Below are positions 1,286 through 63,535 of a DNA stretch of 64,000 nt, piece after piece. A model generated the notes under the pieces. It was not told the DNA's origin. It ran no database searches and was given only the letters and a program-made list of their open reading frames with translations. This stretch comes from Coprinopsis marcescibilis. Lineage: Eukaryota > Basidiomycota > Agaricomycetes > Agaricales > Psathyrellaceae. Made by a program: the position numbers and the translations under genes. Within the stretch, counting starts at the first letter, position 1. Each line of letters begins with the position of its first letter. The DNA is taken from assembly GCA_004369085.1 (NCBI GenBank), contig ML210265.1, positions 28,444-92,443 on the forward strand, read 5' to 3'.

Positions 1286-4200
1286 AAGGAACGACAGGAG
1301 ATGGTGGTGGTTGAGGAGAAAGAAGGATTCGTCGCCTTTCTACATTTTTTATACACGAAACACCCTTCAGCGAAATCAGATCACATTCCCAATTTCAGGT
1401 AATTGCCTCCCAAAAATAGAAATAAAGCCGATTCTCCACATTTTTCATCAGAAATTGGACGTATTTGGTTGCAGAAGTCTTCGGATTCCGGTCCTAACAC
1501 GTCAGACCGTCAGATATAATTGATCCCAGAACAACAACGCAGACCAACAAACCACCTCATTGACTTGCTTCGCTGCTGTTAAACCTTTGAAAAGTTAGCT
1601 CGGGTTAGAAGATAGAGGCACCAGGAACATATATCTTGGGCAAAGGCCCAATCTCGTTGACGATCAGAAGTTGATCTGCTGTGGTCAAGTCGCTGTCACC
1701 TTGTGAAGTGAATCCCTAGAGAACCATCATTCTATCACCATCTGCATCTCTAACAGGCGTTAGGAGCGATGGATAATCGGAGCAAACTGTTTTCAGGCGG
1801 TCCCGGACGCAGGACATGTCGACCAAATCATAATCCATGCCAGTTATGACGTCAAGGCAGGGAAGGACGCGATAGAATGGCAGATTTTACACTAGTCCGA
1901 GTTTTACGCGTCGAAATAACATGAACCTTCTCGGAACCGCCTCATTTAACGATTCGTCTAGCCATCAAGCAGAGAATATCCTAGGCGCCATGACATGGAA
2001 GCCCCTGCATATGGATAGGGGCTCATTATGATCGTCGGATCGAACGGTGCAAAATTACAACGGTCTGAAAAGGCTTGGATACATCCAGGCCCATATACTG
2101 CTGGCTGTCTGTATGCATAGCATATGTAACCCATTGGTATAGTCTCAAAATTGCTGCTCATGGAACTCGAGTCGGGAGGAAGCGCGCCGTGGACCCTTTA
2201 AGGAAAAGAAGCGCCGCGGGGCGGGAGATGCCGCGACAAAGGGGGCAACGACGAACGCCTTCTCTGTCGCGCAGATCCAATCAAATTGCACTCAACTTCT
2301 GCTCAGACTGCTCATTCTAATTGAGGAAATCTATTCGGTTGGTCCCTAGATCACAACCATGACCCCACTGAGCCGCTCGGTGGCACTAGAGACAGTGGCG
2401 TCGATGTTTTACTGAACCTAAGTAGGTAAGTAGCAGTGAACACTGAGAATGTACCAGTATATGGCGGGTAAGTGTATGGGAGAATAGGCACCGATATAAA
2501 TTCAATGTCCACGAAAGCATCCGAGAGCACCCTCGTCCCAAGTGAGCTCCGACCTGGATTCTTTCTTGCGTGGACGCACGGGTGGCAAGGTGACCACTGG
2601 GCAAAGCACCGAGTTAAAACAGATTAGAATCAGTCGGTGAAGCATGAGGAGAATTGAATTAGATCTCGTCTTCGACGAAGAGTGGCGTCGAACATAGGCA
2701 GGTCGCGGGAACCAGGGGAACTGGGGTGCAGATTCGAGCGTGTGTGGACAAATGGTATCCAGTCAATACCTTTGTGGATAGCCAGGGAAGTATCGTATCG
2801 TCTCGCTCCAAAGTCAATCTCACTGTGCATCTCGCACAGACTGGAGAACAGTGGACATATCAATCTCAATAGGATTCGAGTTGGCCAAATCGAGGGACAA
2901 GTAACATGACTTGTACCTGAGCGTTGAGCAGTGGCAGAAACGGGCGAGTGAGACATCTTTGATTATAACTGGTCCAACGTCCGGCATTCATCCTTCCTTA
3001 GACCTGCGAATTCGCCACCTTTCAAGGTAATTGCGGCGTTTAAGTTAGACTTGATGAGAGAGAAACACGGGGTACTTGTGTCACCTGGGCTCCCATTCTT
3101 ATTTCATAATACCGTCACTGTGTCTTCGGAGATACCCCATTGTTGACCTATGCCTTGAACGAGTTGGCCTTCAACGGCGGCTATGCAGACCAAAAGACAG
3201 GATGGGAATCTGGACTGAATGGATCGCATTAACGAGAATAAAATCCACTATTACCTACTACCAAGAGTCGGAGTGGCAAGGACTCACCGTAATTTCCACC
3301 GGGTGGCGTGCAGTTTTTGCAAGGATGCCCTACAGCGAGTCTTGCGATTTTCAACCAACATCACACGGTACCTAGTCCTTGCTATGAAACTCTATCTGTG
3401 AGACCACACACATACATCTAACGAACAAGGGATGAAAGGGTTATCGATTATCCGTGCAGCTCGGTTCCATACACGGTAAAAGGTCAAGTTTGCACATGTA
3501 ACTGTGTCACATCTAGTGTAGATGAGCTAAAACGCGCCGTCACGGCCGTTACAGTCCGTATCCTTACTGGGTAGATCACAACCCGTGTCAGTTTTTGGAA
3601 ATCGAATCAGTTAGATATGCTACGAGAACAGGAGTGTGATGCTCTCCTCATTTCACAGCCGAGCGAACACCACGAGCCACGGGAACCCGCCATTTGACAA
3701 GGAAATCTAGTCCGAGATCCACAAGGAGAACGCTGCATTTGCGTACACCTACTGAAGAATATAGTCATTTGCAACTGGCTCCCAGATCTCGTTTCTCCGC
3801 GGAGAATTGGGAAATAGAGCATGGAGTGATATACCTCGTCAGATGGGGCTAGTTCCAATCTCGAATCAATACTTCTGGTTTGGATGCCGTCAAGACATGA
3901 GGCGCTGAAGGGGACGATGCTCAGAGATAGAGGTCTGGGAGCCGGATCACACAGGATTTAAGGCAGTGGTGAATGAGTTGAAAGAATTTTCACCTAATTC
4001 GAACGGTGAGTATTTTGAAAACTAAAAGTACGATGTTCTGGAGTATCGGCATCAGGGCACGTAAACAAAACAGAGTCAGCAGCAGTCAGGTTTCATCCGA
4101 TCACATCATATATCTCACCAAATATCGTGCATGTGCTCAAGGAGAAACCACTGTTTGTTGCCGGCAGGCAGGAATAATCCAACTCACTCCTAAGATTAAA

Positions 4201-49355: not shown

Positions 49356-50124
49356 CTAGGGAGGGGGACCGTGGATAGGGAAGATCCATCCCCTGGAGTC
49401 TGCGCCGGTAATCGCATCGTAGAAGCACCTGCCAATACGTTCATAGGCACCATCGTTGGGGTGGGTACCGTCCGGAATCTCGTTAAGGCCAACCAGACGT
49501 CCACAATCGGCGAATATAACCGATCTTCCTGCATTGACGCGCTGCTGGACAACACCCGGGAGTGCTGCATTGAACGCATTGATCCTAGCATTGGTCGCTG
49601 CGTTTGAATTTGGTGGGAGGGATGAGACCACGACGAGGGTGAGAGGTGGGAAGTCGAGAAGTTGATCAATGAGCGTGCCAAGTCTCCTGGGCGCGTTACC
49701 GACATCAATGTTCCTGGACATGTCATTGGTTCCAACGAGAATAGTGGCAATGTTCGGGCGATTGATGGGCATGGAGGCCCGCATCCTGCCAGCGACCTCG
49801 TCGATAATTGCACCAGGCCATCCCTCAGTGTCCTTGTCGTGGAAGGTGGAGCCAGTGGCAGGGTTGGAGCCGACCATGTTGACGGTATTTCCGTCTCTGG
49901 CGAGGAGGTTGTAGAGGTCGTCACGGTAGCCATTACCTTGGCTGCTTCCTACGCCAAAGGTGATGGACGCTAAAATTATGCCCAGCTTAGCGAATGAACA
50001 ATCAAAAAGGCTTTCCAGTAGTTGACTCACCACCAAGAGGCATGATTCTGCAGGTCTTCCCGGTGAAAGCGAAAGCATTTGGGAGGAAAGCAGCGATGGC
50101 CACCAAAGAAAGGGCAGAGCGCAT
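49356..50124 (-). CDS. Secreted SGNH/GDSL-type hydrolase, paralogue 1
   Basis: Exons 50031-50124 and 49356-49969 (intron 61 bases) give 235 residues. A signal peptide is evident (MRSALSLVAIAAFLPNAFA). Block I is MPLGASITFG with the likely nucleophile in GAS, where classical members have GDS. Block III is VGTNDM and block V is DGTHPND, supplying the Asp-x-x-His pair. This fits secreted SGNH hydrolases related to carbohydrate esterase family 3, which remove acetyl groups from plant polysaccharides; the substrate is inferred only. The single intron falls at the same codon as in the two paralogues near 59.3 and 61.1 kb. This copy is on the opposite strand about 9 kb away. Confidence 0.88.
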
Positions 50125-55688: not shown

Positions 55689-58331
55689 TTACTTGAATTT
55701 TACATCAAGGGTATTTACACGAAGATTCCCCCGCGTCCAATGCTCATTTCCAGCAATAAAATCCTTCCTGACCACCTTCGACCGGAAGGAAGCCTTCGCA
55801 CCAAGTTCCGCCTTGACATACACACCCTCCACAGGCCCATCATAGAACTTCGACTTCTGCTGAACCATATCTTTCAATTCCGCTTCACCCGGCATACTGT
55901 TATACCGTCCCAGAATAGGTACAGAGAAGATGCTCGTCTCGGCGAGCATCGCCTTCAAAACACCCACACTGACAAACTCATCCTCTGTCCGGTCATAGAA
56001 ATCATACGCCAGAAAGTAGTCGGGGAGGTGCGTATAGGGAATTGAATGCGTCGCGTAAACCCATTCCCCGAACAGAATATACCGTTCAGGGAAGTGGGGG
56101 TCCCTATTGAGCAGCGCGAACAGTTCCACCCTATGCCTCTCGACCCATGCACCGAGCTTCTTGAACTGTTCATGCGTATTTGAGTTGACATAGTGTGACC
56201 GGTTCTGCACGACGATCCGCGACCTGTCCTGGCTGAGCGAGAACCCCATGTTTGCACCGTCAATCTTTTCTGTAATAACGACCTCCCCATGGACTTTCAA
56301 ATGACGTGGATCGAGTTGAATGTCGTCCTCCGTTGCTGCTCCGAGATTGACCAAATGAGGTGTCCTAGGGAATTTGTGTACCCCAACAGGTGGAGAAAGG
56401 AACTCCACGAGTTCCTGCGCAGCAGCGAACGATCGTATAGTGATGATCGCGTCGAATCCCTCCTCCAACTTTGGCCGTTCAAACACCTTGGACATCTGGT
56501 CGATCGCATTACGAACACGCCTTCCAGGTGGTAACGTTGGGTGGTCCGTGCGCATTTGCGCCCTTGAGGTGCACAAATCACTGTCATAGTTGAACCAGAT
56601 ACAAACTGGATGGGTGCACCAGTTCGATGCCAATGCGATCCAGCTCTTGCGATCCTCGGACGACATGTTACATCGATCCAAGAGTACCTGACCCTTCGCC
56701 CTACCAATTTCCGCCTCGCACAAGGCCCTGCTCCCACTGTCATCTTGCGAGATGTGCTGCCAACCTTTCGGTTCTCTCGTAACCAAGCACTTGCTAAACC
56801 ACGACTTCCCCGACCCCGGAAGCCCAACGAGCATGAAAAGATCGCGGCTCGCGTATATCCTCCCCTCTACTTCCATAGGGCAAGGAGGAGGCTCCTCCGG
56901 CAACCCAGGCAAGACGCGCTGTCTCTTCCAAATCGTACTGCACCATTTGGATACAAAGGCTTCCTGCTGAGATGTCTCGAGACTTCCAGGCCTCAACGAG
57001 CGCAGAATGTTTATCGCATCGCCGGCAGAGAGCTCTGGTTGCGTCCGTTCGTGGGACACTGAGCCAAATCCACATGCGGCAATGTAGCATGCAGCCACCG
57101 TCCCTGCACGTCCCTTGCCGCCACCACAATGAACGAGGAGCGGGAGGTTGTCGTCGTCCAAGAATAACCGCATGACAATGTCCATTTGCTCGATCGACGG
57201 TGGGTGGTAGTTTGGAACAGGGAGGAATGTGTTCGTTATGGAGGTGCGAGCCTTGAACCACTTCTCCTCCAGTGGTGTTTCCTCCGTCAATGTCAGAACC
57301 CTCCTAATACCCAGTGTGGACGAAGCCAGCGCCACAATATCTTCTTCGCAGCGCGGCGTCGACATGATTGCGAGTTTGAAAGGGATAAGCCATCTGAAGA
57401 ACCGAGGAAGCTTGTAGAAAGCCCGGATATCGACGTTGCCTTCCATGTCGCCAGAGCCTTCTAGATCTTGCAGACGTCTGGGGATGTACAACGCGTCGCG
57501 GGGTTGAAGACATAGCTTGGGCGTCGTGCTTGCTTCGGAAAGGGCGAGCTGAAGGTCGTTGGACCAGGGCTTGATTAAAACTGGGCCTAGGTCGAATGGA
57601 ATTTGCGCGAATTCGTGCTGTTGAAATACACATCCCCACTCCGTCTTTTCAGAGCACGCAATGAGCTTCTTGATGCAGTACTTGCGAAGCTTTTCCTCCT
57701 CGGCCCGCTCGTAACACGCTGCGTATGCCAGCATGGCCCGTTTAAAATCCTCCGTGGCCAATGACGCGTCCGCGAGTCTGAGGAACCCTTTGTGGGATTT
57801 GGGGAATTTGGACATGAGGGTCTCGCCATAGCCCCCGGCTGCCCCATAATCCCCCATGATATGTCCTGTAAATGCGCTGTGGTCGTAAAACTCTATGAGC
57901 AAGTCTGTCTGGATCATCTGGGTCAAGTATTGGCCAGAGAACAGGGATTTTACTCCCTTGTCCATGTCGTGGTCATCTTTGGGCGAAAGGGTGATGTGGA
58001 AGTGTTTCGGTGGAAGTCCAAGTTGCTTTCGCAGTTGTTGGCCTGCAGCCCAAATAACAACAATGTAGATAACTGAAGAATCCCTGTTTCCGCCCAGGCC
58101 GACGGGGAAGACGTAGCGGAGATCTACTTCTAGACTAGCAATTTTGTCTGAAGGAATTTGGCGTAGTTCGTCCTTTGTTAGCAGAGTAATGTGGTAAGAG
58201 GCGGATGGGTCGTAGGGAAGTCGGTGTCGCTTGTTCGAAGGGGATTGTATGGTTTCTTGTACAATGTTGGTAATGCGAGGCCCAACGAGCGCAAGAACGC
58301 CACGATTTCGGGTTAATACGAGGTCGGCCAT
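55689..58331 (-). CDS. Multidomain RNA-repair protein: 2H phosphoesterase, phosphatase, kinase, RNA ligase
   Basis: One uninterrupted frame of 880 residues from the Met at 58331; an in-frame Met 26 codons upstream is possible. Four modules are visible. (1) A 2H-phosphoesterase-like region with paired HIT motifs at His47 and His112. (2) After a helical, TPR-like stretch (about 175-225), a dual-specificity-phosphatase-like P-loop, HCGGGKGRAGT, with Cys402 and Arg408. (3) A P-loop kinase with Walker A GLPGSGKS (503-510) and LLDRCNMSSEDRKSW (550-564), as in polynucleotide-kinase-type enzymes. (4) A nucleotidyltransferase with motif I EKIDGANMG (Lys689), ILFGEWVYA (Glu756), EGVYVKA (835-841) and SKVVRKDF (851-858), as in Rnl2/DRB0094-type RNA ligases. 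The motifs suggest an enzyme that opens cyclic phosphates, removes a phosphate, phosphorylates 5' ends and seals RNA. Fungal Trl1 instead has the order ligase-kinase-cyclic phosphodiesterase and no phosphatase. The absence of introns is striking. Confidence 0.85.
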   Translation of the reverse strand: MADLVLTRNRGVLALVGPRITNIVQETIQSPSNKRHRLPYDPSASYHITLLTKDELRQIPSDKIASLEVDLRYVFPVGLGGNRDSSVIYIVVIWAAGQQLRKQLGLPPKHFHITLSPKDDHDMDKGVKSLFSGQYLTQMIQTDLLIEFYDHSAFTGHIMGDYGAAGGYGETLMSKFPKSHKGFLRLADASLATEDFKRAMLAYAACYERAEEEKLRKYCIKKLIACSEKTEWGCVFQQHEFAQIPFDLGPVLIKPWSNDLQLALSEASTTPKLCLQPRDALYIPRRLQDLEGSGDMEGNVDIRAFYKLPRFFRWLIPFKLAIMSTPRCEEDIVALASSTLGIRRVLTLTEETPLEEKWFKARTSITNTFLPVPNYHPPSIEQMDIVMRLFLDDDNLPLLVHCGGGKGRAGTVAACYIAACGFGSVSHERTQPELSAGDAINILRSLRPGSLETSQQEAFVSKWCSTIWKRQRVLPGLPEEPPPCPMEVEGRIYASRDLFMLVGLPGSGKSWFSKCLVTREPKGWQHISQDDSGSRALCEAEIGRAKGQVLLDRCNMSSEDRKSWIALASNWCTHPVCIWFNYDSDLCTSRAQMRTDHPTLPPGRRVRNAIDQMSKVFERPKLEEGFDAIITIRSFAAAQELVEFLSPPVGVHKFPRTPHLVNLGAATEDDIQLDPRHLKVHGEVVITEKIDGANMGFSLSQDRSRIVVQNRSHYVNSNTHEQFKKLGAWVERHRVELFALLNRDPHFPERYILFGEWVYATHSIPYTHLPDYFLAYDFYDRTEDEFVSVGVLKAMLAETSIFSVPILGRYNSMPGEAELKDMVQQKSKFYDGPVEGVYVKAELGAKASFRSKVVRKDFIAGNEHWTRGNLRVNTLDVKFK

Positions 58332-59326: not shown

Positions 59327-60093
59327 ATGCGCTATACTCTTTCTTTGGCAATCATCGCTGCTTTCCTCCCCAATGCTTTCGCATTCACCGGAAAGACTTG
59401 CAGAATCATGCCTCTTGGTGGTGAGTTAGCTATCGACATACCTTTACCGTAGCTCATGCTGAGCTATATACTGTTGCAGCATCTATCACGTACGGCAAAG
59501 GAAGCAGCCAAGGCAATGGCTACCGCGACGACCTCTACAACCTCCTCGCCAGAGACGGAAACGTCGTTAACATGGTCGGAAACAACCCAGCAATCGGCTC
59601 CACCTTCCACGACATAGACACTGAGGGATGGCCTGGCTTCAAGATCGCCGAGGTCGACGCGAAGATGCGCATCTCCATGCCCAGGAACCGCCCGAACATT
59701 GCTACCATCCTCGTTGGAACCAACGACATGTCCGCAAACGACGACGTTGGCAATGCACCTGCGAGGCTTGGCAGGCTCATCGACGGAGTCCTCGACTTCC
59801 CACCACTCACCCTGGTCGTCGTTTCCACCCTACCGCCCAATGCGAACCCAGCCACCAACGCTAGGATTAACACGTACAACGCCGCGATCCCAGGCGTTGT
59901 CCAGCAACGTATCAATGCAGGAAGATCGGTGGTCTTCGCCGACTGTGGACGTGTGGTCGGCATGGGTGACATCCCTGACGGTATTCACCCCAACGATGCT
60001 GCCTATGAGCGCATTGGCAGGTGCTTCTACGATGCGATTGTGTTCGCGGATTCCAGGGGTTGGATCTTCCCAGTCGACGGCGCCCCTCCCTAA
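59327..60093 (+). CDS. Secreted SGNH/GDSL-type hydrolase, paralogue 2
   Basis: Exons 59327-59420 and 59480-60093 give 235 residues, the same exon lengths (94 and 614 bases) as paralogue 1. The signal peptide is MRYTLSLAIIAAFLPNAFA. Block I is MPLGASITYGKGSSQGNGYR, block III is VGTNDMS, and block V is DGIHPND. Conserved cysteines appear in the mature start (GKTCRIMP) and in FADCGR and GRCFYD, consistent with an oxidised extracellular protein. Its function is predicted as an acetyl- or other ester hydrolase on polysaccharides. It is same-strand and adjacent to paralogue 3. Confidence 0.88.
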
Positions 60094-61106: not shown

Positions 61107-61861
61107 ATGCGATATACTCTTACTTTGGCGACTATCGCTGCGTTCATCTCAAATGCTTTCGCATTCACCTGCAGAATTATGCCGCTTGGCGGTGAGTCAA
61201 AAGACTGTAGATTGATCGCAACTTCCCTGAGGCTGATATCAATACAGCATCTATCACCTTTGGTGTGGGAAGCAGCCAAGGTAATGGCTACCGTGACGAC
61301 CTCTACAACCTCCTAGAAGCAGACGGAAATGTTGTCAACATGGTGGGCAACAACCCCGCAGTAGACTCCACCTTCCACGACAAGGACACCGAAGGCTGGA
61401 GTGGCTTCAAAATCGCTCAGGTCGACGAGAAGATGCGCATTTCCATGCCCCAAAACCGCCCTAACATTGTCACCCTCCTTGTCGGAACCAACGACATGTC
61501 CGGAAATGATGATGTTGCCAATGCGCCCGGGAGACTTGGAAGACTCATCGACGGAATCCTCGGCTTTCCTCCCCTCACCTTGGTCATCGTTTCGTCCCTT
61601 CCACCCAACAGGGATGCGGCCACCAACAATAGGATTAACGCGTACAATGCCGCGATCCCAGGTGTTGTTCAGGCACGGGTTGATGCGGGGAGGTCGGTTA
61701 TGTTTGCTGACTGTGGAAGTTTGGTTGGCGCGGATGAGATTCCAGACGGTACCCACCCCAATGACGCTGCCTATGAACGTATTGGCAGGTGCTTCTACGA
61801 GAAGGTTGTGGAGGCCGACTCCAGGGGTTGGATCTTCCCTGTCGAAGGCCCTCCTCCCTAA
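61107..61861 (+). CDS. Secreted SGNH/GDSL-type hydrolase, paralogue 3
   Basis: Exons 61107-61191 and 61248-61861 give 232 residues. Exon 2 is 614 bases, as in the other two paralogues. Exon 1 is nine bases shorter because the Thr-Gly-Lys before the first cysteine is missing (AFAFTCRIMPLG). The signal peptide is MRYTLTLATIAAFISNAFA. Catalytic blocks are intact: GASITFG, VGTNDMS and DGTHPND. The C-terminal DSRGWIFP block is shared by all three. It is predicted to be an extracellular esterase. The tandem position next to paralogue 2 and the matching promoter show local duplication. Confidence 0.88.
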
Positions 61862-62197: not shown

Positions 62198-63535
62198 ATG
62201 ACCCTCACATTGCTCTCTGCAGGATCCAACGCGCACGGCCAACTAGCCCACTCCTCCAACGAAGATTCACACACCTTTCTGCCATGCCAATTTTTGGGAT
62301 CCCCAGCTAACAAGCTACCTTCCAATGCTACCCAACTCCTTGACGTCGCGACTGGTGCCAACCACACTCTCATTCTGCTCCAGCTTTCCCCCGTAAATGA
62401 CAAACCAGGAGGAAGAAGGATACGAGAGGTTTGGGGATGCGGAGATGGTCGAGCAGGGCAGCTGGGTCGCAAGTATCAGGAATTCCTCGACGTTGCACGG
62501 GCTAGCGGAAAACCTTTCCAAACGGACGTTTTCCGGAAGCTCGAGTTGGATCTGGAGGCCGAGGGATTGGAGGGTTACGAGCCGAAGGCGATATCTGCCG
62601 GCTGGGAGACCTCGTATATCACCCTCTCCACTTCAAATGGCAACATGAGCGATGTTCTGGTATCGTTCGGCTCGGATGACTTTGGCGATCTCGGGATTGG
62701 TGGACTCGCCAAGCGGAAAGGGAAAGAGGCGAGAAAGGAATTGAATCGCATTGACTTCAGCCATCTCCTCCCAGACGGTGCGCTGGTTTCTATTGTTGGC
62801 CTGTCGGCCAACCAGCATCACGTTGTCGTCCACATTAGGGCTGGCGAGAAGGGTTGGGTGGTTGGGTGGGGAGCTGCTCGACACGGGCAAATTGGGGTTC
62901 CACCCACCGTTGGAAGTAAACCAGCACCTACTGTTGGCAAACCCCAACTCATGATGGTGGAAGACATGAACGATCCATTCGTATCCCTCTCTGTCGGTTC
63001 ACAACATAGCGTGTTGTTGCGTTCGTCTGGCAAATTGGTTGGCCTAGGTTCGAACAGGAAAGGACAATTGGATGTAGTTCATCTCGAGAACGTGAAGGCA
63101 GTTTCTTGCACCTGGAACGGGACATTTGCCTTGGTGGAAAAAGATACTACATGGCGAGTGCATGGCACCGGGAGCAATACTCATGGGCAGTTAGGCCGGG
63201 GTATAGGGTCGTCGAACGAAGGGCAATCTGAACACATACATTTCCGCTCGATGTCAGATGGTGCACAACCGGTGTTACTGAGCTGTGGGACGGAGCATGT
63301 GTTTGTATCGTTGACAATGGAACGAGAAGACATTTGTGGTTCTCAAAGTGACCAGGTGTGGGGGTGGGGGTGGAATGAACACGGAAATCTCGGTATGGGC
63401 CATACAGACGACCGTCATGAACCGGTCAGAATATTCCCGAAAGAGTCTGGAGAAGCAGGGCGCCTCGCAGGCATTTGGACAGGATCTGGAACTAGTTGGA
63501 TCCTGTGGCGTACGAATAATGTCCTCGTGTCTTGA
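62198..63535 (+). CDS. RCC1-repeat protein, Ats1/Kti13-like
   Basis: A single-exon frame of 445 residues. At least seven RCC1-type blade signatures are spread along it: GSNAHGQL (residue 9), GCGDGRAGQLG, SFGSDDFGDLG, GWGAARHGQIG, GLGSNRKGQLD, GTGSNTHGQLG and GWGWNEHGNLG. They fill the whole protein, so it is a lone beta-propeller without other domains. Size and lack of extra domains fit yeast Ats1/Kti13, which binds Kti11/Dph3 and supports diphthamide synthesis and Elongator-dependent tRNA wobble-uridine modification; yeast Ats1 is somewhat shorter. The large subfamilies of RCC1 proteins make this assignment probable, not certain. The start is the Met immediately before the first blade. Confidence 0.82.
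   Translation: MTLTLLSAGSNAHGQLAHSSNEDSHTFLPCQFLGSPANKLPSNATQLLDVATGANHTLILLQLSPVNDKPGGRRIREVWGCGDGRAGQLGRKYQEFLDVARASGKPFQTDVFRKLELDLEAEGLEGYEPKAISAGWETSYITLSTSNGNMSDVLVSFGSDDFGDLGIGGLAKRKGKEARKELNRIDFSHLLPDGALVSIVGLSANQHHVVVHIRAGEKGWVVGWGAARHGQIGVPPTVGSKPAPTVGKPQLMMVEDMNDPFVSLSVGSQHSVLLRSSGKLVGLGSNRKGQLDVVHLENVKAVSCTWNGTFALVEKDTTWRVHGTGSNTHGQLGRGIGSSNEGQSEHIHFRSMSDGAQPVLLSCGTEHVFVSLTMEREDICGSQSDQVWGWGWNEHGNLGMGHTDDRHEPVRIFPKESGEAGRLAGIWTGSGTSWILWRTNNVLVS

Follow-up and report, generated by a model that had tools for sequence, protein, structure and literature searches.

The 64,000-nt stretch of Coprinopsis marcescibilis DNA analysed here (contig ML210265.1, positions 28,444 to 92,443; hereafter the window) carries on its minus strand a gene for a multi-module protein that, judged by its sequence, belongs to the already catalogued Swiss Army Knife (SAK) family, since Pfam and UniProt carry this name for its modules and relatives (UniProt names the relative P0298 'Swiss Army Knife 2H phosphoe...'). 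The open reading frame (ORF) of 880 amino acids is unbroken from an ATG at position 58331 to a stop at 55691-55689. A GTG upstream would lengthen the ORF to 906 amino acids; the ATG was taken as the start because the N-terminus of a homologue, P0002, begins at the same point. The gene lies on contig C120 of the 36.3-Mb assembly, and the genome has one copy of the protein. We also noted that the gene is a 2.6-kb single frame and that its neighbours, for example a protein kinase gene at ~52-53.9 kb, look split by introns.

Pfam recognised four domains in the chain. 2H-SAK (PF22547) and PTP-SAK (PF22784) scored 75.3 and 192.4 bits, each against a cut-off of 27, the kinase matched AAA_33 (PF13671; 1.3e-11, 45.4 bits) and the ligase matched RNA_ligase above its cut-off (PF09414; residues 683-853, 4.8e-33, 115.1 bits). 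With a TPR-like helical segment between the first two, the order in the single chain is 2H, TPR-like, PTP, kinase and ligase (Table 1). An AlphaFold model (mean pLDDT 88.9) matched solved phosphatases, kinases and ligases in fold searches, those for the ligase including T4 RNA ligase 2 (Rnl2), Naegleria RNA ligase and RNA-editing ligase 1. The kinase also matched the solved Mucorales kinases 9d8a and 9drz, at 4.4e-21 and 1.3e-19. The 50 fold-search matches listed contained no 2H enzyme and no RNA triphosphatase, which says nothing against either. The best structural matches of the TPR-like segment were mostly TPR proteins, at modest scores, and the probable role of this module is to hold the chain together or to bring in substrate. 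At the sequence level, the two HxT motifs of a 2H phosphoesterase (H47-I-T and H112-I-T) lie inside the PF22547 match. The kinase has the Walker A motif, catalytic Asp and lid Arg of Pnkp-type 5'-kinases, and the ligase residues K689, R711, E756, E835 and K852, which we take to represent motifs I, Ia, III, IV and V of Rnl2-like ligases, are aligned and conserved.

An earlier note on this DNA had described four modules in one chain. Pfam bears out all four, with the AlphaFold model backing the phosphatase, kinase and ligase, and the residue numbers given there (H47, H112, C402-R408, Walker A 503-510, LDRCN 551-555 and K689) proved exact; the TPR-like module had been missed. The motifs at His47 and His112 are real but had been called paired HIT motifs, and they are instead the HxT motifs of the 2H superfamily. 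The protein has no HxHxH, the active-site signature of HIT hydrolases, and no HIT family was among the 11 Pfam matches at E<=1, which rules out a HIT hydrolase. PF09511 (Trl1 ligase) and PF01885 (PTS_2-RNA, Tpt1/KptA) likewise had no match in the protein at E<=1.

Table 1. Features of the SAK gene and its predicted protein, with window coordinates
Feature	Position	Strand	Evidence
Whole gene, SAK-type RNA repair protein, 880 aa	55689..58331	-	ORF; N-terminus matches P0002 start
2H phosphoesterase (2H-SAK), residues 11-121, predicted 2',3'-cyclic phosphodiesterase	57969..58301	-	PF22547, E 6.7e-21
HxT motif 1, H47-I-T49	58185..58193	-	H in 164/188 aligned proteins
HxT motif 2, H112-I-T114	57990..57998	-	H in 185/198 aligned proteins
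TPR-like helical module, residues about 136-266	57534..57926	-	AlphaFold pLDDT 86.2 (residues 125-305); modest structural matches, mostly TPR proteins
DSP/PTP phosphatase (PTP-SAK), residues 309-460	56952..57407	-	Pfam PTP-SAK, E 6.3e-57
Phosphatase P-loop HCGGGKGRAGT, residues 401-411, including lysine K406	57099..57131	-	C402 227/227, K406 219/225, R408 220/223
N374, aligned to DUSP23 Asp65	57210..57212	-	N 217/223, D 4
E452, aligned to DUSP23 Glu134	56976..56978	-	E 214/220
P-loop 5'-OH polynucleotide kinase, residues 496-647	56391..56846	-	AAA_33 match
Walker A GLPGSGKS, residues 503-510	56802..56825	-	K509 in 210/215
Kinase motif LDRCN, residues 551-555	56667..56681	-	D552 219/222, N555 215/220
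Rnl2-type ATP-dependent RNA ligase, residues 650-878, ends shortly past motif V	55698..56384	-	RNA_ligase match
Ligase motif I, K689-x-D-G-A-N694	56250..56267	-	K689 280/285; motif III E756 292/292

A homology search returned 442 relatives at E<=1e-3 from 7990 candidates scored. Both SAK domains, the kinase and the RNA ligase were present together in 118 of the 120 relatives listed (query included), which argues that the architecture is not a product of chance. No difference of substance from the SAK families was found; two features that relatives share with the window protein, an Asn aligned with DUSP23 Asp65 and the TPR-like module, are absent from their Pfam annotation. The named relatives among the 120 were Agaricomycetes, often annotated 'ATP dependent DNA ligase', and the closest among the matches listed, from Coprinopsis cinerea, is 65% identical. 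Taken literally, the automatic name carried by many records would make this a DNA or RNA/DNA repair enzyme, and the kinase does resemble mammalian PNKP; we regard such a function as very improbable, given that the ligase matches PF09414, T4 Rnl2, Naegleria RNA ligase and RNA-editing ligase 1 and that a 2H cyclic phosphodiesterase makes sense for RNA ends.

A second search used the 2H-PTP half with a length limit that excludes most full-length mushroom proteins. The best 120 of its 167 relatives included fungi (Kwoniella, Pseudohyphozyma, Penicillium taxi, Myriangium, Aureobasidium and Tuber, as well as the chytrids Gaertneriomyces and Globomyces), bdelloid rotifers (Adineta, Rotaria and Didymodactylos), the fern Adiantum, the alga Trebouxia and the oomycete Globisporangium, some of these names standing for one record each. 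Not every record showed all the modules: the Kwoniella, fern and longer rotifer models were without a 2H match, and other records were fragments. The contig of the fern copy is 139 Mb long, an argument against contamination. The architecture is not unique, being present in whole or in part in fungi, rotifers, oomycetes, a fern and an alga, and the view that this domain order was undescribed in fungi is contradicted in substance by the Pfam Swiss Army Knife 2H and PTP families and the UniProt name of P0298. Shorter proteins that look complete were also found. All six inspected 2H-PTP proteins (437-463 aa) and all six inspected kinase-ligase proteins (379-389 aa) had their motifs, although one of the latter, P0198, whose sequence starts inside the first strand of the kinase, may be truncated. 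As far as these sequences tell, the short forms divide along functional lines, 2H with PTP and kinase with ligase. We also observed that gene models of two distant fungi, Mycena maculata (P0090) and Cytidiella melzeri (P0114), join SAK to a PfkB sugar kinase; this may be a genuine fusion, or gene prediction may have merged a conserved neighbouring gene.

In an unrooted tree of 43 ligase domains (234 columns), 27 of the 28 rows labelled eukaryotic formed one supported group (98/89); the exception, P0227, carries the eukaryotic label without a known source and fell outside this clade. Rotifers and oomycetes were placed with fungi inside a 13-row group (98/89), and the fern paired with the chytrid Gaertneriomyces (96/83). 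This nesting suggests that SAK spread laterally between lineages, as would be expected of conflict-related repair genes.

Conservation was counted in 355 fetched proteins, with gapped rows dropped site by site (Table 1; T49, T114 and D530 were kept in 169/189, 170/197 and 214/216). All eleven key columns were aligned in 123 proteins. In this strict set every protein kept the residues of the phosphatase, kinase and ligase, whereas both HxT/S motifs were kept in 103 and broken in 20. Of the 150 proteins no shorter than 740 aa, a wider set in which gaps were not counted, 28 had substitutions in the 2H module, none in the phosphatase, one in the kinase (P0304) and three in the ligase (P0249, P0283 and P0285). 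These outliers beyond the strict set count against a perfectly fixed phosphatase-kinase-ligase core, as do those in shorter records, where K689 was replaced by Gln in four and Arg in one, and K509, D530 and R408 were changed in four, two and three, respectively. In local alignments, the 20 broken 2H motifs were mostly clean substitutions, such as HILL/HIAL in Mycena and YIPL in Galerina; part of them may be gene-model errors, as P0098 is without the stretch before motif 2 and P0337 has an odd N-terminus. With the 2H motifs broken in 20/123 and the other three sites intact throughout the strict set, the cyclic-phosphodiesterase step is evolutionarily much more dispensable than the remaining three. 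A quick tree was made from residues 305-880 only, with SH-aLRT as its only support measure; on it the intact/broken label requires 15 changes, at least 10 of them forced by well-supported branches. Shuffled labels gave a mean of 18.9 changes, with 2/500 shuffles as low as 15, indicating that the label is somewhat clustered. The 2H motifs of the window protein itself are intact. In Kwoniella, none of the six records listed (P0271, P0279, P0283, P0284, P0285 and P0288) had a 2H-SAK Pfam match, and P0271 has YSIT at the position of motif 1; a clade-wide loss of the cyclic phosphodiesterase is possible, and some of these models may be truncated. No paper on 2H-module decay in SAK proteins was found in the literature searched.

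The phosphatase shares with DUSP23 (VHZ) the fold, the catalytic Cys/Arg loop and the equivalent of Glu134, and differs from it in having Asn for Asp65 and a P-loop lysine and in sitting in an RNA repair chain. Both acid positions were numbered with an offset anchored on DUSP23 Arg101. The P-loop lysine, K406, may suit a nucleic-acid phosphate. There is precedent for phosphatase action on RNA 5'-triphosphates in DUSP11 and the baculovirus phosphatase, and the SAK phosphatase could act on 5' ends of this kind or on another phosphoanhydride, leaving 3' healing to the 2H module or to other enzymes. The near-universal Asn at the Asp65 position could be accommodated where the leaving group does not depend on an acid from the protein, phosphoanhydride cleavage by acid-less PTPs is documented (PFA-DSP acting on inositol pyrophosphates; PMC9038691), and the phosphatase is retained where the 2H module is broken. 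We nevertheless consider 5'-end activity rather unlikely, since E452 is kept in almost all relatives and the two-domain 2H-PTP proteins, having neither kinase nor ligase, point to a joint job at the 3' end. According to the same source, VHZ uses Glu134 as its primary general acid, and Asp65 is able to take its place. Given this role and the conservation of the equivalent residue, the predicted phosphatase is probably active via E452.

The ligase and kinase can be compared with solved enzymes in the same way. Like T4 Rnl2 and Naegleria RNA ligase, the SAK ligase has the nucleotidyltransferase fold and motifs I, Ia, III, IV and V; unlike them, it is fused to healing modules and ends shortly past motif V. 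Rnl2 has a C-terminal domain, which the SAK ligase lacks. The GDP-bound kinases from Rhizopus azygosporus (9d8a) and Lichtheimia corymbifera (9drz) have the same fold and motifs at 31-34% identity; their entries describe them as kinases of 165-176 aa, and the literature searched yielded no paper on them. For the C. marcescibilis protein, no title on its biochemistry was found in that literature, whose coverage leaves out most subscription papers.

Trl1 (PF09511-PF08303-PF08302) also combines a ligase, a 5'-kinase and a 2H-type phosphodiesterase in one chain. Exon-by-exon searches of the C. marcescibilis genome found Trl1-type ligase, kinase and cyclic phosphodiesterase (CPD) matches in that order on contig C310 (1244-3876; individual matches at 1244-2153, 2534-2967 and 3097-3876), the CPD match carrying two HVT motifs, as well as Tpt1-family loci on contigs C45 and C131. 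Two in-frame TAG codons in the Trl1 ligase match and five stops in the C45 Tpt1 match are presumed to be introns. The earlier note was right that the domain order of Trl1 differs from that of the SAK protein, which in addition has a phosphatase and an Rnl2-type ligase. Its proposal that the phosphatase replaces Tpt1 does not hold: given the Trl1-type domains and the two Tpt1-family loci, tRNA splicing has its own enzymes, and SAK as a replacement of Trl1 or Tpt1 in this genome is ruled out. The same set of healing and sealing activities in another order could still serve as a backup or specialised splicing enzyme, acting on tRNA introns or a HAC1-like mRNA. We consider this improbable, as Trl1-type ligase, kinase and CPD and Tpt1-family genes are already present, the ligase is Rnl2-type (PF09414) and not Trl1-type (PF09511), and the distribution is patchy and crosses kingdoms.

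RtcB had no match in the genome, in a search that found it in 9 of 14 control genomes, and a second PF09414 ligase was not found in the genome. HAD_SAK_1 (PF10307) matched neither this genome nor the control genomes, which is uninformative. In PMC9503650 and PMC7824862, 'Swiss-army-knife' denotes a HAD-type RNA-end phosphatase family, for which both cite Burroughs & Aravind (2016). The second Tpt1/KptA-family gene (C131:29341-29892; L003:1288-2217) starts with MLSRLSVRYAST, which resembles a mitochondrial targeting sequence.

Relatives of the ligase module were also found outside eukaryotes. A scan of viral contigs with alignment A1 gave 82 relatives, 80 of which were kept; nearly all match the ligase, two (L021 and L069) reach into the kinase, and none of the 80 has a 2H or PTP match. 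In prokaryote genomes, five loci matched, all by the ligase only. The nearest prokaryotic or viral ligase relatives found (L012-L014, 34-40% identity) stand directly behind two genes, with the whole trios at L012:1338-3675, L013:1072-3675 and L014:1078-3666. In the two loci tested, L012 and L014, these neighbours matched the PADLOC models HEC-03A (1e-18 and 2e-25) and HEC-03B (3.4e-110 and 1.3e-124), the HEC-03B-matching genes also matching NsnB and PDC-M55A more weakly; no PADLOC model matched the two ligases at E<=0.01. The L012 ligase matched 23 plasmid records, and all four that were opened (L098-L101; hosts Azotobacter, Aeromonas, Rhodococcus and Tistrella) have a similar trio in the order DUF3696/AAA ATPase, small hypothetical protein and RNA ligase. 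These HEC-03-associated ligases of bacteria and prophages are stand-alone genes of 226-243 aa behind the ATPase and the small protein, in contrast to the fused SAK ligase. It is possible that the candidate anti-phage system HEC-03 includes this ligase as a third gene, so far unrecognised, whose product perhaps repairs RNA cleaved by HEC-03A. The HEC-03A-type protein has a VDTN start that appears PIN-like, and it had no Pfam match. Searches of viral contigs with the kinase-ligase proteins P0202 and P0195 gave no relatives among 17 and 4 pattern matches and neither support nor exclude a giant-virus origin. Two further arrangements were observed: an HD-domain kinase gene directly behind a same-family ligase in a proteobacterial metagenome-assembled genome (L092:1491-3517), and a kinase-HAD (PNKP-type) gene upstream of a same-family ligase in a viral contig (L021:2998-6569).

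Within the window, three GDSL-lipase-like frames of one family (PF13472), at 49356-50078 (-), 59572-60093 (+) and 61265-61861 (+), flank the SAK gene on both sides as a local gene family. An RCC1-repeat protein is encoded nearby at 62198-63535 (+), read as a single 445-aa frame.

Collectively, these data make it fairly likely that the protein is a SAK-type RNA end-healing and sealing enzyme that exists beside Trl1 and Tpt1 and acts most likely on broken RNA rather than ordinary tRNA introns. The modules, their active-site residues and the coexistence with Trl1- and Tpt1-family genes can be read from the DNA; the order of reactions, the substrate of the phosphatase and the biological substrate we infer as follows. 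By the detailed reaction steps of 2H enzymes, the 2H module would open a 2',3'-cyclic phosphate to leave a 2'-phosphate. The DUSP23-like phosphatase would take off that phosphate to give 2',3'-OH ends, the kinase would phosphorylate the 5'-OH, and the Rnl2-type ligase would adenylate the 5'-phosphate and join it to the 3'-OH, with no 2'-phosphate scar. The heal-and-seal logic that the earlier note drew from the domains is supported, and healing before sealing is the most economical reading. Fungal Trl1 ligase requires the 2'-phosphate, and Trl1 keeps it through sealing, after which Tpt1 strips it. The SAK phosphatase more likely acts before sealing, and would therefore bypass the Tpt1 substrate and not stand in for Tpt1. 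Where the 2H module is broken, another phosphodiesterase, such as the Trl1 CPD, could supply 2'-phosphate ends, or the substrates could carry plain phosphates.

Candidate substrates for such an enzyme are nuclease-cleaved tRNA or rRNA. Its likeliest role is to repair damage inflicted in conflicts, because the family has a patchy distribution and seems to have spread laterally, and because a 2024 study of bdelloid rotifers describes RNA-ligase genes that were acquired horizontally and are strongly induced in response to a fungal pathogen, and suggests that they function in repairing ribotoxin damage (PMC11258130). Its methods list PF13563, PF09414 and PF09511 together. Some observations weigh against the reading of the protein as a SAK-type healing and sealing enzyme for broken RNA. 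The usual general-acid Asp is absent from the phosphatase (N374), the broken 2H motif in 20/123 proteins means that the four steps are not always in one chain, and the induced rotifer ligases are not identified as SAK members in the available part of that study, which gives bacterial and phage ligases as their top BLAST matches (PMC11258130).

A broader scenario, somewhat unlikely as a whole, is that SAK is a eukaryote-wide, horizontally spread enzyme of RNA-repair immunity that derives partly from ligases of bacterial defence loci, namely the HEC-03 trio, with an indispensable core of phosphatase, kinase and ligase and a repeatedly dropped cyclic phosphodiesterase. If so, the enzyme would in many fungi need ends already opened elsewhere, for example by the Trl1 CPD, or breaks with plain phosphates. 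The repeated decay of one catalytic module with the other three fixed predicts a step that can be supplied in trans. A phosphatase acting ahead of sealing would constitute a scarless alternative to the Trl1/Tpt1 route within one cell. Eukaryotic models for dedicated RNA damage repair are few, and SAK offers a single-chain, genetically accessible system, with a close relative in the laboratory mushroom Coprinopsis cinerea, for asking whether eukaryotes have RNA damage repair dedicated to that purpose and apart from tRNA splicing.

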